Origin: Actinomycetota bacterium | GTDB lineage: Bacteria > Actinomycetota > Acidimicrobiia > Acidimicrobiales > Ilumatobacteraceae | Reading direction: 5' to 3' | DNA length: 64,000 nt | Assembly: GCA_009702045.1 (NCBI GenBank) | Contig: WLIV01000004.1 | Span: forward strand, 1-64,000 | Part shown: positions 17,478 through 22,695 of the stretch, in pieces | Layout: each line of letters begins with the position of its first letter | Position numbering within the stretch: the first letter of the stretch is position 1 | Translations under genes and position numbers: made by a program | The notes under the pieces: generated by a model | Told to the model about the DNA's origin: nothing | The model's database searches: none | The model's input: only the letters and a program-made list of their open reading frames with translations

Positions 17478-19352
17478 TCAGCTGGTGATCTCGCGTAGGA
17501 ACGCTTCGGCCACTGCCCGTTCGCGAGTGCGCTTCATCGGCGGCAGCGCCTTGACAATGTCCCAGCGGTAGTTCGCCTTGCCGAGCCGCGGGTCCATCAC
17601 GGCGACGACGCCGCGGTCGCTGGCGTTGCGAATGAGGCGGCCGGTGGCCTGGGCCAGCAACATCGACGCTCGCGGCAGGTCGATCTGGCTGAACGCCGCG
17701 GCACCCAGCTGATCGCGGCGGGCGGACAGCAATGGATCGTCGGGTCGTGGGAAGGGGATACGATCGATCACCACGAGGCTCAGCGTGCGCCCGGGGATGT
17801 CGACGCCCTGGAAGAAGCCGGCGGTGGCGAACAGGCAGGTGTGCTCGTCCTCGCTGAACGCCTTCACCAGAGCGGTCTTGGGTAGGTCGCGCTGGGTCAT
17901 GATCGGCACTTGCACGCGGGCGCGTACCGCCTCGGCCGCGGCATCCATCGCCTTCCAACTCGTGAACAATGCCAACGTGCGCCCGCCCGCAGCGGTGATG
18001 AGCGCCACGAGCTCATCGTGCACTGCGGCTGCGTACTGCGGCGTACGCGGATCTGGCATGTGGAGCGCGCAGTAGAGCAGCGCGTTGTGCTCGTAGTCGA
18101 ACGGGCTGCCGACATCGACCTCATCGAACTCGCCGGGTGGCAGGCCGACCCGCGAGCCGAGTGAGCTGGGGATGGTGGCGCTGCACAGGATGGCCGTGCG
18201 CTGCGACCAGATGCCGTTGGCCAGCACTCCGCCCACCTCGAGTGGTGCGATTTCGAGACGTGGGTAGTCGGGGCCGCCGCTGACGAACGAGACGTAGCCC
18301 TCCTGCCCGCGCAACGCTGTGTCGAGCGCCTCCTGCAGGCGCGTGGCCAGTTGTTGCCCGCGGATCTTGCGTGCCTTGGCATCGTCGACATCGGTGTCGA
18401 TCGCTCGGAGCGCACTCTGTGCCTTCTCGATACGGCCGCGTACGTCGATGAGCATGTCCTGGATTGCGTCGGGGTACGGCGTGGCGAGCCGCTGTCCGAG
18501 GAACGGGACGAGCGCATCGCGCACCCGCACGGACGCCTCGGCCAGTGGGCCGATGACGGCGGGGTCGTCGAGGATGCGCTTCAGCGACGCCGTCAACGTG
18601 GTGAAGCGGCCCCCTGCAACCTGGACGCCGACGGTGTCGCTCATGATGTCTTCGAGTTGGTGCGCCTCGTCCATGACCACGACGTCGTGCTCGGGCAGGA
18701 TCATCCCGCCGCTGCCTACGTGCAACCCGTACAGGTGCATGTTGACGACGATGACATTAGCGACGGCGGCTCGTTGACGAGCCAGTTCCGCGAAGCAGAC
18801 GCTGCCCATCGGGCAACGGTTTGCGCCGGGGCATTCATCGCTGCCGACGCTGACTGCCTGCCACGCGCGGTCGCTGGGTGCCCATGCGAGCGAGGCTTGA
18901 TCGCCGCTGTCGGTATCGGCCGACCATGCCACCAACCGGTTGATCTCGACCTTCGTGGTGGCAGCGAACTCCTCGAGCTCTAGCTGACCGGTGGCCTTGT
19001 TCTGAATCTCGCGCACTCGCTGCATGCACACGTAGTTGCTGCGCCCCTTCAGCACCGCCCAATCAAAGGGGATGCCGAGGTGTTGTTGCAGGAACGGCAG
19101 ATCCTTGGCCGCAAGCTGGTCCTGCAGGGCTTTGGTGGCGGTGGCGACCACTACTGTCTTCCCTGCCAGCACGGCCGGCACCAGATAGCCGATGGTCTTG
19201 CCGGTGCCGGTGCCCGCCTGCACCACTAGATGGCGGCCGGTGGTGACCGCGTTGCCCACGGCGATGGCCATCTCTCGCTGCCCAGGACGGTCCTCTGCGG
19301 CGGGGAGCGCACCGGTCACCGCCGCAAGTGCTGTGCTGACGGAATCGGGCAT
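17478..19352 (-). CDS. DinG/XPD-type ATP-dependent DNA helicase
   Basis: Superfamily 2 helicase of 624 aa related to DinG/XPD. Walker A is QAGTGTGKT (about residue 45) and the DEAH box reads VVVMDEAHQLED. Between them lie four cysteines (NYVC, DEC, NRC, SVC) spaced as in the 4Fe-4S domain of this family. The C-terminal half has LFTSWKAMDAAAEAV, FATAGFFQGVDIPG and LLAQATGRLIRN. Likely 5'-3' DNA unwinding in repair or replication-fork processing. A TAACGT box eight bases before the ATG suggests leaderless transcription. Confidence 0.9.
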   Translation of the reverse strand: MPDSVSTALAAVTGALPAAEDRPGQREMAIAVGNAVTTGRHLVVQAGTGTGKTIGYLVPAVLAGKTVVVATATKALQDQLAAKDLPFLQQHLGIPFDWAVLKGRSNYVCMQRVREIQNKATGQLELEEFAATTKVEINRLVAWSADTDSGDQASLAWAPSDRAWQAVSVGSDECPGANRCPMGSVCFAELARQRAAVANVIVVNMHLYGLHVGSGGMILPEHDVVVMDEAHQLEDIMSDTVGVQVAGGRFTTLTASLKRILDDPAVIGPLAEASVRVRDALVPFLGQRLATPYPDAIQDMLIDVRGRIEKAQSALRAIDTDVDDAKARKIRGQQLATRLQEALDTALRGQEGYVSFVSGGPDYPRLEIAPLEVGGVLANGIWSQRTAILCSATIPSSLGSRVGLPPGEFDEVDVGSPFDYEHNALLYCALHMPDPRTPQYAAAVHDELVALITAAGGRTLALFTSWKAMDAAAEAVRARVQVPIMTQRDLPKTALVKAFSEDEHTCLFATAGFFQGVDIPGRTLSLVVIDRIPFPRPDDPLLSARRDQLGAAAFSQIDLPRASMLLAQATGRLIRNASDRGVVAVMDPRLGKANYRWDIVKALPPMKRTRERAVAEAFLREITS

Positions 19353-19393: not shown

Positions 19394-20635
19394 TCAGTCA
19401 GTGATCGCGCTGTAGATCAGATTGCGCAGTTGCCCGCGGAAGTCGAACAGGCCCGATGGCATCAGCTGGGTCATGAACACGACCCACAGATCCTCGACCG
19501 GATCGATCCAGAACACAGTGGACGCGGCGCCACCCCAGTAATAGTCGTGGCGGCTGGCCGAACCTGCCGCGACCTGATCGATCGTGGACGCGAAGCCGAG
19601 GCCGAAGCCCACACCGACGTTGCCGTACAACTCGACGAGCGCCATGTCGAGCGACGCGAGATCCTTGCCGTCGGGCAGGTGGTTGCGGCGCATCAGTTCG
19701 AGTGTGCGCGGTCCGATGATGCGCTGTCCGTCGAGCTCGCCGTTGCGCCGCAACATCTCGCAGAATCGCGTGTAATCGTCGAGCGTGCCCGTCAGCCCGC
19801 CTCCGCCCGACACGAACTTCGGCGGGCGTGTGTAGGGGCTGGTGGCGGGGTCGTCGAGCAGGGTGGTGGTCTTGTCGGCGTTACGGGCGTAGTTGGCGGC
19901 GAAGCGCGGCACGTTCTCGGGCGCCACCTGGAAGGACGTGTCCACCATGCCCAACGGGCCGGTGATGTGCTGCTGCAGGTACTCGGCGAGGGGCTGTCCG
20001 GAGATGCGTTCGACAAGGGCGCCACACGCGTCCGTTGCGAGCGAGTACATGTAGGCGGTGCCGGGCTGGAACCGCAGCGGCACCACCGCCAGCTTTTCCA
20101 TGAACTCGGGCAGTGTCTGCTCGGTACCGAACGCGCGGATGCCGTTGGCGCGGTACATCGCATCAACCTCGTGCTGATCGCCCATACCCGGTAGCACCCC
20201 GCCGTAGGTGAGCCCGGCGGTGTGCGTCAGCAGATCGCGGACCGAGACGGGTCGGTGCGCTGGCTCGGTGACCATGTCGGATCCGGCGCCGGAGACCCAT
20301 ACCTGGTGCAGCGCCCACGAGGGGAAGAAACGCTGCACCGGATCGTCCAACTGGAACAGGCCGCGCTCGAACAACTGCATCAACGCGATCGAGACCAGCG
20401 GCTTGGTCATCGAGTAGATGCGGAAGATGGTGTTCTCGGCCATGGGCACGGAGCGCTCGCGATCCGACAGGCCCAGCGTTGCCCGGTACGCAAGGTGGCC
20501 GCGCCGACCGATCGCGACCTGACAGCCGGCGATCTTGCCGGTGTCGACGTAGCGCTGCTGCAGATGGGCGGCGATCCGGTCGAGTCGCGCCGGATCGAAC
20601 CCCACGCTCGTTGCATCAACCTGTGTGCTGCTCAC
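19394..20635 (-). CDS. Serine hydrolase (class C beta-lactamase family)
   Basis: Beta-lactamase/penicillin-binding-like hydrolase of 413 aa. The catalytic SxxK reads SMTK (in FRIYSMTKPLVS, about residue 95), with the Tyr motif candidate YMYSLATDACG further on. No signal peptide is visible, so it is probably a cytoplasmic esterase-like member rather than a true beta-lactamase. I place the start at the GTG at 20635 because a GAGGGA Shine-Dalgarno sits just upstream. The longer reading frame would overlap uppS by about 97 bases. It follows uppS by 14 bases and is probably co-transcribed. Confidence 0.82.
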   Translation of the reverse strand: MSSTQVDATSVGFDPARLDRIAAHLQQRYVDTGKIAGCQVAIGRRGHLAYRATLGLSDRERSVPMAENTIFRIYSMTKPLVSIALMQLFERGLFQLDDPVQRFFPSWALHQVWVSGAGSDMVTEPAHRPVSVRDLLTHTAGLTYGGVLPGMGDQHEVDAMYRANGIRAFGTEQTLPEFMEKLAVVPLRFQPGTAYMYSLATDACGALVERISGQPLAEYLQQHITGPLGMVDTSFQVAPENVPRFAANYARNADKTTTLLDDPATSPYTRPPKFVSGGGGLTGTLDDYTRFCEMLRRNGELDGQRIIGPRTLELMRRNHLPDGKDLASLDMALVELYGNVGVGFGLGFASTIDQVAAGSASRHDYYWGGAASTVFWIDPVEDLWVVFMTQLMPSGLFDFRGQLRNLIYSAITD

Positions 20636-20649
20636 ATTGCTCCCTCGCG

Positions 20650-21336
20650 TCACTGGACAAGCAACAATGCCGCGTCCAGCTCTGCAGCATCGAACTCGGG
20701 CCACGGACGCTCGCTGAAGTACACCTCGCTGCCAGCGCTCTGCCACAGCATGAAGTTGGAGATTCGCAGCTCACCGGATGTGCGTACCAACACGTCCACC
20801 GGCGGTAAGTCGGGGAGGTAGAGATTGCGCTCGACCGCCACTTCGTCGACTGGGCCCTGTGCCGCGGCCAGTTGCGCGGCGTGCACTATTTCGGCGTGGC
20901 TGCCGTAGTCGAAGGCAACGGTGAGGACCATGCCGGTGTTCTTGGCCGTGTCGCGGATCGCCTTGCGAATGGCGCGCTGCACATACTTCGGCGTACGTGC
21001 TTCGGGGAGGTCGAACGGGCGGCCCATCCACTGGATGCGCACGTTGAGTTCGTTGAGTTCAGCGACCCGTCCGAACAACTTCTTGTGCAGACCCAGGATG
21101 TGGCGCACCTCGCCCCGTGGGCGCACCCAGTTCTCGGTAGAGAAACCGAACACCGTGAGCCAGCCGACGTTGCGGGTGACGGCGACACGGACCAAACGGG
21201 CCAGGTTCTCCTCACCCTCGGTGTGCCCCGCGGTGCGAGCCAGATTGCGGCGGTTCGCCCACCGGCCGTTGCCGTCCATGATGCACGCCACGTGCACCGG
21301 GTTCCCGGCGGGCGAGTGGGTGTCGGGCGACGGCAC
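20650..21336 (-). CDS. uppS: cis-Prenyltransferase (UppS-like), lacking C-terminal RxG
   Basis: Isoprenyl transferase of 228 aa of the undecaprenyl diphosphate synthase family, which builds the lipid carrier for cell-wall synthesis. It retains CIMDGNGRWA (catalytic Asp near residue 21), GFSTENWVRP, FDYGSHAEIV, VLVRTSGELRISNF and LWQSAGSEVYFSERPWPEF. The protein stops at LLLVQ, about a dozen residues short of the C-terminal RRFGG (RxG) motif normal for homodimeric UppS. I chose the GTG at 21336 because a TAGGGT box lies seven bases upstream; a GTG at 21381 is the alternative. See the divergent partner at 21414. Confidence 0.88.
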   Translation of the reverse strand: MPSPDTHSPAGNPVHVACIMDGNGRWANRRNLARTAGHTEGEENLARLVRVAVTRNVGWLTVFGFSTENWVRPRGEVRHILGLHKKLFGRVAELNELNVRIQWMGRPFDLPEARTPKYVQRAIRKAIRDTAKNTGMVLTVAFDYGSHAEIVHAAQLAAAQGPVDEVAVERNLYLPDLPPVDVLVRTSGELRISNFMLWQSAGSEVYFSERPWPEFDAAELDAALLLVQ

Positions 21337-21413
21337 GCCGCCAACCCTACTGTCCTGATGCGCTGCGGTCTGGGCTGCCACGATTCCGGTGGTCCGCGTG
21401 GGACAATGTCCTG
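21337..21413. promoter_or_regulatory. Divergent leaderless promoter pair
   Basis: The 77-bp gap between two divergent start codons holds a -10-like box for each side. One is TAGGGT on the minus strand (21344-21349), seven bases before the uppS GTG. The other is GACAAT on the plus strand (21402-21407), six bases before the ATG of the UppS-like partner. No Shine-Dalgarno is seen on either side. Clear -35 elements are not evident. The layout would allow balanced expression of both genes; the calls rest on spacing only. Confidence 0.4.
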
Positions 21414-21950
21414 ATGAGCCCCGAGCCCGTCGACCAGGTGCTGCTGCGCCATGTCATCGTGGTGGGTGGTTCGCTCGCCGAATGGGCTTCGCTCACCGAC
21501 GATCAGTGGTCGACCCGGCTCGCTGAACTGGGCAAGGTGGCCGACCACGTGGGTGCGCAGTGGCTGATCCTGCGGCCGTACGGCCCGGACGGCACTGCTC
21601 ATGCTGTGCCCGAGCATTCCGTCATGGTGGGAAACTGCCTCGTCGTCGCACAGCCCGACACGGACGGTCGTCGGCGGCTGGCACGGGCCATCGCCGGATT
21701 ACAGCAGCGAGGTGCTCCCATCAGTGAGGCCACCATCGACGCGGAGATGAACGCTCCGGCCGAACACGACCCCGATCTCGTCGTCGTGCTCGCTGCGTCG
21801 CACCGGATGCCTCCATCACTGGTGTGGGAGTTGGCCTACAGCGAACTCGTCTTTGTCGATTCCCCCTGGCAGCACTTTGCCGCTCAGCAACTTGACGAGG
21901 CAATGGCCTCGTACGCGCACCGCCACCGCCGTTTCGGCGGGGTCGACTGA
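21414..21950 (+). CDS. Non-catalytic UppS-like protein carrying RxG motif
   Basis: Protein of 178 aa that aligns with both ends of cis-prenyltransferases. The C-terminal part (about 118-178) has DPDLVVVLAASHRMPPSLVW, then AYSELVFVDSPW and ends YAHRHRRFGGVD. This mirrors the UppS tail including the RxG motif. Upstream, DGRRRLARAIAGLQQRG matches the GGRWDIV helix. At the N-terminus HVIVVGGSLAEW takes the place of the IMDGNGRW motif, so the catalytic Asp is lost, as are the Arg and Glu of RTGGE. About 70 residues of the central tunnel helices are missing. It lies 13 bases upstream of recO and diverges from uppS. It is probably a regulatory or accessory subunit comparable to NgBR/Nus1; a decaying paralogue is the alternative. 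Confidence 0.72.
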   Translation: MSPEPVDQVLLRHVIVVGGSLAEWASLTDDQWSTRLAELGKVADHVGAQWLILRPYGPDGTAHAVPEHSVMVGNCLVVAQPDTDGRRRLARAIAGLQQRGAPISEATIDAEMNAPAEHDPDLVVVLAASHRMPPSLVWELAYSELVFVDSPWQHFAAQQLDEAMASYAHRHRRFGGVD

Positions 21951-21963
21951 CGTCGGGCAGCAC

Positions 21964-22695
21964 GTGGCCAGTCACCTGTACCGCGACACTGCCGTGGTGT
22001 TGCGTACCTACAAGCTCGGCGAGGCCGACCGCATCGTGGTCTTACTCACCGAGGCACACGGCAAGGTTCGCGCCGTGGCCAAGGGTGTGCGCAAGACGAA
22101 GTCGAAGTTCGGTGCTCGCCTCGAACCGATGAGCCACGTCCACTTGCTGCTGTCGCAGGGTCGCGACCTCGATGTGGTCAGCCAGGCAGAGTCGGTGGAA
22201 TCGCTGGCGCCGCTGGTCGCCGATCTCGACCATCTCACGGCCGGGATCGCGGTCCTGGAAGCGGCGGACCAGATGGCGCTCGAACGCGAGCCCAACCCAG
22301 GTTTGTATCGCATGGTGGTGGGTGCCTTGCGCACCATCGCTGCCCGTGGTGGCTCGCTGGTAGTGCCGGCGTTCTACTGGAAGCTGCTCGCTGCCGACGG
22401 TGTACGCCCTGAGTTGGATGTGTGTGTGCGCTGCGGCGAGGCCGGCCCGTTGGTGGCGTTCGACATGCTCCACGGCGGGGTGCTGTGCCGAACCTGCCGC
22501 TCGGGTGCGCCGTTGTCGGAAGGGGCGCTAGAGATCATGCGGATGATCCTCGGCGGGCGTCTGAACGACGCGCTGAACACGCCGCCGTCACGCGAGACCC
22601 ACGAGGTGATGGCCCACGCGACGCGCTCGCTCGAGCACCACATCGAGCGTCGTCTGCGCACGGTGGCGATGTTCGAACGTGCTGAACTCGGCTAG
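21964..22695 (+). CDS. recO: DNA repair protein RecO
   Basis: Recombination mediator of 243 aa that, with RecR, loads RecA at gaps. The N-terminal OB-fold contains VVLRTYKLGEADRIVVLLTE and AVAKGVRKTKSKFGARLEP. A zinc-binding CVRCGEAG...CRTCRSG pair lies in the C-terminal half (about 155-180). The GTG at 21964 starts 13 bases after the UppS-like gene and directly precedes ASHLYRDTAVVLR, the usual RecO N-terminus. The frame is open further upstream inside the preceding gene but lacks family similarity there. Confidence 0.92.
   Translation: MASHLYRDTAVVLRTYKLGEADRIVVLLTEAHGKVRAVAKGVRKTKSKFGARLEPMSHVHLLLSQGRDLDVVSQAESVESLAPLVADLDHLTAGIAVLEAADQMALEREPNPGLYRMVVGALRTIAARGGSLVVPAFYWKLLAADGVRPELDVCVRCGEAGPLVAFDMLHGGVLCRTCRSGAPLSEGALEIMRMILGGRLNDALNTPPSRETHEVMAHATRSLEHHIERRLRTVAMFERAELG

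Follow-up and report, generated by a model that had tools for sequence, protein, structure and literature searches.

Organisation of the gene pair

The window, that is, the whole stretch of 64,000 nucleotides that was analysed (positions 1 to 64,000 of contig WLIV01000004.1, assembly GCA_009702045.1, family Ilumatobacteraceae), contains two divergent genes whose products, A and B, resemble undecaprenyl diphosphate synthase (UppS), and a recO gene next to them (Table 1). Both products match the profile PF01255 above its cut-off of 27 bits. The leftward protein (A) carries the motifs DGNGRW, FSTENW, RTSGE and SEVYF and ends before the C-terminal tail. The rightward protein (B) has none of DGNGRW, FSTENW and RTSGE, and possesses AYSELVF and RRFGGVD at its C-terminal end. 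The N-terminus of B reads MSPEPVDQVLLRHVIVV, with strand 1 beginning at residue 13 (from the sequence of B and its model).

Table 1. Features of the A/B locus (positions refer to the window)
Feature	Position	Strand	Remarks
Putative catalytic subunit A, UppS-like	20650..21336	-	Likely start GTG 21336; PF01255 208.5 bits, profile 1-208 of 219
Codon of the catalytic Asp of DGNGRW in A	21274..21276	-	
RTSGE motif of A	20770..20784	-	
Stop codon of A	20650..20652	-	At the point where the RxG tail would come next
Putative non-catalytic subunit B, 178 aa	21414..21950	+	Start ATG 21414; PF01255 52.2 bits, profile 125-219
Glu of AYSELVF in B	21843..21845	+	Invariant in B, gone from most A
RRFGG tail (RxG motif) of B	21927..21941	+	
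GACAAT, likely -10 box for a leaderless start of B	21402..21407	+	6 nt before the ATG
TAGGGT, possible -10 box of A	21344..21349	-	7 nt before GTG 21336; loose motif TAnnnT
recO (start inferred)	21964..22695	+	Follows B directly; indicates where the ancestral uppS lay

The longest open reading frame of A (20650-21381 on the reverse strand, 243 aa) begins at GTG 21381, but the start at GTG 21336 is more likely, judging from relatives and from the TAGGGT box. The gap of 77 bp between the genes given in a preliminary description of this DNA holds for the latter start, whereas with the longest frame it is 32 bp. The same description assigned leaderless-type -10 boxes to both genes: GACAAT is a likely box for B, while TAGGGT can be regarded as a possible one for A. 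Upstream of B, the form GAnAAT/C was found at a distance of 6-8 nt from a candidate start codon in 60 of 105 loci, and in 50 of the 60 the distance is 6 nt; for A, TAnnnT precedes a start codon by 6-8 nt in 61 of 106. Several start codons were tried per locus, and neither count had a shuffled control. The upstream box of B is consistent with leaderless expression.

An open reading frame resembling serine hydrolases/beta-lactamases by eye lies at 19394-20746 on the reverse strand. In its longest reading its upstream part extends over the 3' end of A, and its true start is probably near 20636.

Distribution of the active-site motifs between A and B

The proteins were compared over 106 loci having both genes: the window, genomes of the family and close relatives found by name (16 loci that repeated the same genomes were dropped; two of the four named MAG loci, L034 and L035, stand for G197 and G199). 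DGNGRW, FSTENW and RTSGE are present in all 106 A proteins and in no B protein. The RxG motif has the opposite distribution, being absent from all 106 A proteins and present at the C-terminus of 105 of the 106 B proteins; the remaining B (L128) is cut by a contig end. The chain that keeps the catalytic Asp and the substrate motifs is thus always the one without RxG. Neither chain holds both halves (0/106 A with RxG, 0/106 B with DGNGRW), unlike canonical homodimeric UppS, which has the Asp motif and RxG in one chain. The preliminary description of two divergent UppS-type genes with complementary halves was confirmed in the window, and since the paired pattern is repeated in 106 loci, chance does not explain it.

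A column alignment was made of 112 A proteins, 104 B proteins and 17 single-chain (canonical) UppS. The A set includes six loci in which B lies beyond the fetched stretch or the contig end; these had first been grouped with the canonical enzymes and were later returned. Two of the 106 B proteins were left out, L053 (missed by the trimming pattern) and the cut L128. The catalytic Asp is found in 112/112 A and 17/17 canonical proteins and in 0/104 B, and the Asp, Asn and Arg of DGNGRW, together with the Arg and Glu of RTSGE, are present in every A and no B. In the RRFGG tail, R, R, F and the first G are invariant among the 104 B proteins and the last G occurs in 103 of them; the first Gly is found in 0/112 A. 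The glutamate of SELxF is present in 17/17 canonical proteins and 104/104 B, but in just 12 of the 112 A proteins, where its position is mostly occupied by Lys (44), Ala (21) or Arg (14). Although the A of the window is among these 12, the SEVYF glutamate that had been listed with its motifs is not a conserved feature of A; the other entries of that list (DGNGRW, STENW, RTSGE, no RxG) stood. For B, the reported absence of the Asp motif, of the R/E of the RTGGE type and of the tunnel-helix segment, and the retention of AYSELVF and RRFGG, were borne out by the 104 aligned proteins and the structural model.

When 30 single-chain UppS were used for comparison, B was seen to retain, and A to have lost, a Gly, a Leu, the Tyr and Glu of AYSE and R, R, R and G of the tail; the reverse set, retained in A and missing from B, includes the motifs of the FPP, IPP and Mg2+ pocket. 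The A proteins terminate 16-28 residues after the last W(P/S) begins, 78 of the 106 of them after 17-19 residues, and in canonical UppS the RxG is complete at residue 24 of the stretch from that point (17/17). Readthrough of the A stop codon (the Pfam match spans one TGA) was rejected, as RxG is missing from 106/106 A proteins whose last residues vary. A further substitution specific to A was observed at AFDYGS (residues 156-161 of the A of the window): its Asp occurs in 112/112 A proteins, against the Asn of AFNYGG in 17/17 single-chain UppS.

Predicted fold of B and selection

AlphaFold modelling gave a mean pLDDT of 92.8 for B (58 sequences) and a pLDDT of 85.4 for A as a single chain. With VIA-align, the model of B matched UppS and other cis-prenyltransferases with Z of 11-12 over 140-163 residues (rmsd 3.4-4.7), and the best 50 Foldseek rows likewise consisted of UppS and other cis-prenyltransferases. 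B is therefore predicted to have the cis-prenyltransferase fold, lacking the tunnel-helix segment. No NUS1/NgBR chain was found among the best 50 Foldseek and best 50 VIA-align rows, though such chains may lie lower. A profile search of solved chains with B returned UppS at E 2e-22 and NUS1 at E 1e-5.

The median dN/dS was 0.08 for A and 0.17 for B, from the 90 of 117 close pairs that were usable (dS under 2 in both genes): B is under purifying selection. Decay of the rightward gene in relatives, which according to the preliminary description would, together with a second complete UppS, speak against a two-subunit enzyme, was not seen in the 105 other loci. A mirror-tree comparison gave r(A,B) of 0.80 and r(A,recO) of 0.78 (partial correlations 0.52 and 0.47); as this does not discriminate A-B from A-recO, it was rejected as support for contact between A and B.

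Cis-prenyltransferase genes across the family

A profile search of the genome of the window (99.45% complete; E up to 10) found A and B and no other PF01255 gene. A closed relative (G111; one contig, 4,830,181 bases) has the A/B pair, and a search at the same threshold for a second full-length cis-prenyltransferase yielded the pair only. A second complete UppS elsewhere, the other part of that contrary evidence, is therefore found in neither genome. mraY is present in the genome of the window, so an undecaprenyl-type carrier lipid should be needed. Two matches lie above the mraY (TIGR00445) cut-off there, at G000:C34:176706-177566 and G000:C7:33097-34032.

A PF01255 match was found in 208 of 221 Ilumatobacteraceae genomes. 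The 13 genomes without one are all 55-84% complete and so speak neither for nor against; one of them, G211 (81% complete), has recO. A match is present in all 79 family genomes with a completeness of 90% or more and a contamination of 5% or less; 74 of them have exactly two (a hand count of the table, in which not each case was checked as an A/B pair). The five others are G039, where B is in two pieces flanking a run of N; G045, with B alone, at a contig edge; G158, where A is split across two contigs and B is present, as is also seen in G034; and G127 and G209. The last two, like G210, have one full-length UppS in place of the pair. So does G116 (g12, 72% complete), in which recO was not found. 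Four family genomes that lack the pair thus have a complete single-chain enzyme, and G211 shows neither.

Genomic neighbourhood and origin

A full-length uppS lies directly before recO in all 13 outgroup loci of the order (L054-L066). In the family this place is taken by B: of the 105 loci where recO was seen, 104 have it downstream of B in the same orientation, at a distance inside a set window, and in the remaining one, L098, the end of the locus truncates recO. B had been described as sitting where recO-uppS synteny places uppS, and this arrangement agrees with that; the pair, which was to be sought beside recO in relatives, was found in 105 loci besides the window. In one genome, G101 (G101:C96), the two genes lie roughly 10 kb from each other, which counts against the two-subunit reading; in L102 and L109 (G202 and G201) they are not adjacent but about 0.6-0.7 kb apart. 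The pair thus tolerates separation.

Over its last 95 residues, B has a mean identity of 38% to the recO-linked UppS of the order, 33% to other UppS of the class, 34% to the single-chain UppS of G127 and 20% to A. The 86-row tree places the A proteins in one group and the B proteins in another, each with 100% SH-aLRT support. B is on a long branch, and its nearest neighbour therefore cannot be told from the tree. A may stem from the same duplication as B or from elsewhere, given the long branches and the only partly alignable B.

Scans with a B profile detect relatives of the Ilumatobacteraceae B only, so that an independently arisen heteromer would not show in them. Among the matches listed in the class scan (296 genomes), family members with B reached 136 bits or more, with the match beginning at profile position 3-7; in other families the score did not exceed 107 bits and no match began before position 38. 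In the phylum scan, 10 of 296 genomes matched at E <= 1e-32, all of them Ilumatobacteraceae. No relative of B was found in viral contigs. Other families of the class were considered as sources of independent heteromers using 17 non-family genomes from 13 families, each with two matches, which were checked by Pfam coverage out of many such genomes. For these genomes the idea was rejected: in 16 of the 17 both copies span profile positions 1-219 and look like ordinary paralogues. The 17th (G660, f68) has a full-length UppS and a short piece at G660:C47:33671-33808 (profile 174-219) in a 48-aa open frame. In L173 and L175 (G619 and G603; f65, genomes of about 1 Mb) two full-coverage cis-prenyltransferases were observed per genome, one of which has an odd tail (RVRKYGNA, RNRTYGKN).

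The genomes without the pair include G127 (g18), with a single full-length uppS before recO, and members of g26. In g26, the sequence surrounding recO in L187, L189 and L190 yielded neither A nor B. In L187 and L189 (G209 and G211) a helicase-like open reading frame abuts recO; it resembles the one at 17478-19352 of the window, which by eye we take to be DinG-like. The single full-length UppS of G209 and G210 (L004 and L005) is of another type and lies away from recO, with RTSSE and the tail RRKGS or RRMGS; a replacement event in g26 is possible on these sequences. The recO tree joins g18 and g26 (support 92). They are perhaps an early branch that never had the split, the alternative being that the pair was lost.

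Comparison with known cis-prenyltransferases

HexA/HexB and HepS/HepT are enzymes of the trans type, whose fold and mechanism are unrelated to those of cis-prenyltransferases. Like the proposed A/B enzyme, they build a prenyl chain with two subunits in bacteria (sections of the review PMC7839719). Bacterial cis-prenyltransferases are presented as homodimers in the same sections of that 2020 review, with heteromers typical of eukaryotes. No precedent for a bacterial heteromeric cis-prenyltransferase was found among the papers listed in searches of the open-access literature; a report in subscription papers or preprints is possible.

In the human DHDDS/NgBR complex, the C-terminus of NgBR crosses the dimer interface into the active site of DHDDS. 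There the S2 phosphate is held by backbone nitrogens of the last NgBR residues, with the Arg of RxG placed between the two sites; homodimers are reported to show this crossing as well (passages of PMC7573591). Homodimers of DHDDS have poor but real activity, with a kcat about 400-fold below that of the complex, and yeast Nus1 has Asn at the position of the RxG Arg (same passages). The preliminary description, in which the non-catalytic subunit supplies exactly the RxG in trans, therefore fits DHDDS/NgBR but not every known non-catalytic subunit. As in DHDDS/NgBR and Rer2(Srt1)/Nus1, A would be the catalytic subunit, with the Asp and without RxG, and B a subunit of the same fold that resembles the family mainly at its C-terminus and brings the RxG. 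The likeness to the human pair extends to the SELxF glutamate, which is divided in the same way as RxG: in motifs aligned by eye, DHDDS has Cys at this position (HSCLVF), and NgBR keeps the Glu (LTEIV) and ends in RLGK.

The differences from the eukaryotic pairs are also clear. A ends at its last helix, without the helix-turn-helix domain that is described for DHDDS in parts of PMC7573591. Unlike NgBR, B starts about 12 residues before strand 1 and has no extra N-terminal membrane segment. Such a segment, an NgBR/Nus1 trait, was looked for on B and is absent; because it is a trait of the eukaryotic branch only, B is not placed in the NgBR/Nus1 branch. B is also closer to bacterial UppS than to NUS1, as the profile search indicates, and the pair is bacterial and probably serves the cell-wall carrier. 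With canonical homodimeric UppS the pair shares the fold, the catalytic motifs (in A), the tail (in B) and the recO neighbourhood (of B).

Among archaea, MM_0618/MM_1083 of Methanosarcina mazei is a heteromer likely serving a glycosyl carrier lipid (sections of PMC8131916, citing Emi 2019). It resembles A/B as a prokaryotic two-gene cis-prenyltransferase, a likeness by description only. A second protein of M. mazei, MM_0014, is an active homodimer without RxG, in which a C-terminal tail, TLGG, is still present and covers the cavity of the partner (same sections of PMC8131916).

A putative two-subunit enzyme

The motif partition, its conservation and the search for other PF01255 genes support the two-subunit interpretation of the preliminary description, with complex and activity predicted from sequence. 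A and B are very probably the two subunits of an obligately heteromeric undecaprenyl (or similar cis-polyprenyl) diphosphate synthase. A would bind FPP, Mg2+ and IPP and hold the growing chain. B, with the same fold and no working pocket, would pair with A via the usual cis-prenyltransferase dimer interface, so that its RRFGG tail and the glutamate/tyrosine region of AYSELVF enter or flank the active site of A. If cis-prenyltransferase dimers act in trans in this manner, A:A would be without tails and B:B without pockets, and only A:B would complete a site. In the human enzyme as in the bacterial one, the glutamate of SELxF is found on the chain that has the tail; by analogy, this suggests that the glutamate also acts in trans or positions the tail.

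The simplest history of the pair is duplication followed by complementary loss. In an ancestor of most Ilumatobacteraceae the recO-linked uppS would have duplicated, or met a second copy, and each copy would then have lost what the other still supplied in trans. Such complementary loss would turn a dimer with two equal sites into one with a single composite site. The heteromer of Ilumatobacteraceae is probably independent in origin from NgBR/DHDDS. It seems likely that it arose from a recO-linked uppS apart from the archaeal and eukaryotic heteromers and was divided along the same seam as the human enzyme, with the SELxF glutamate and RxG on one side and the substrate pocket on the other. This seam would follow the residues supplied in trans, and a homodimer would have become an obligate asymmetric dimer with one site.

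An improbable alternative is that A works alone as a homodimer without RxG and that B, instead of contributing to the active site, has a regulatory role or modulates chain length. The activity of MM_0014 without RxG (in the sections of PMC8131916 cited) and the weak activity of DHDDS homodimers (in those of PMC7573591) imply that A alone might work to some degree. This leaves unexplained, however, why the invariant residues of B include the RxG tail and the SELxF glutamate (104/104), exactly the ones that A lost, and why the pair is kept where a full-length UppS is absent; MM_0014, moreover, retains its TLGG tail over the cavity of the partner, as those sections of PMC8131916 state. It is more doubtful still that the pair makes a different, non-essential cis-prenyl product while the carrier lipid is made by an enzyme that does not belong to PF01255. 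The product is not readable from sequence, but mraY is present in the genome of the window, neither this genome nor that of G111 has an alternative PF01255 gene, and four family genomes without the pair (G116, G127, G209 and G210) carry one full-length UppS instead. The view that the original recO-linked uppS persists in B as a decaying pseudogene, while A is a neofunctionalised copy, though it would fit the loss of all catalytic motifs from B and its dN/dS of about twice that of A, is strongly contradicted by the open frame and RRFG tail in 105 uncut loci, the purifying selection (median omega 0.17, 90/117 pairs), the promoter-like box that recurs upstream of B and the absence of a complete UppS from the genome of the window and from closed G111, and can be practically dismissed.

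If the two-subunit enzyme is real, the arrangement known from NgBR would have one more origin, probably a separate one, in a heteromer retained by almost an entire bacterial family. This small version, with no membrane anchor, should lend itself to expression and crystallisation; it would offer a system for asking why an active site gets divided between chains, with candidate trans-acting residues already named, among them a glutamate in addition to RxG. The pair is also a trap for annotation, because B can be taken for a UppS fragment and A for the complete enzyme. Most Ilumatobacteraceae appear, from their gene sequences, to have a carrier-lipid enzyme divided into two proteins with complementary halves of the active site.
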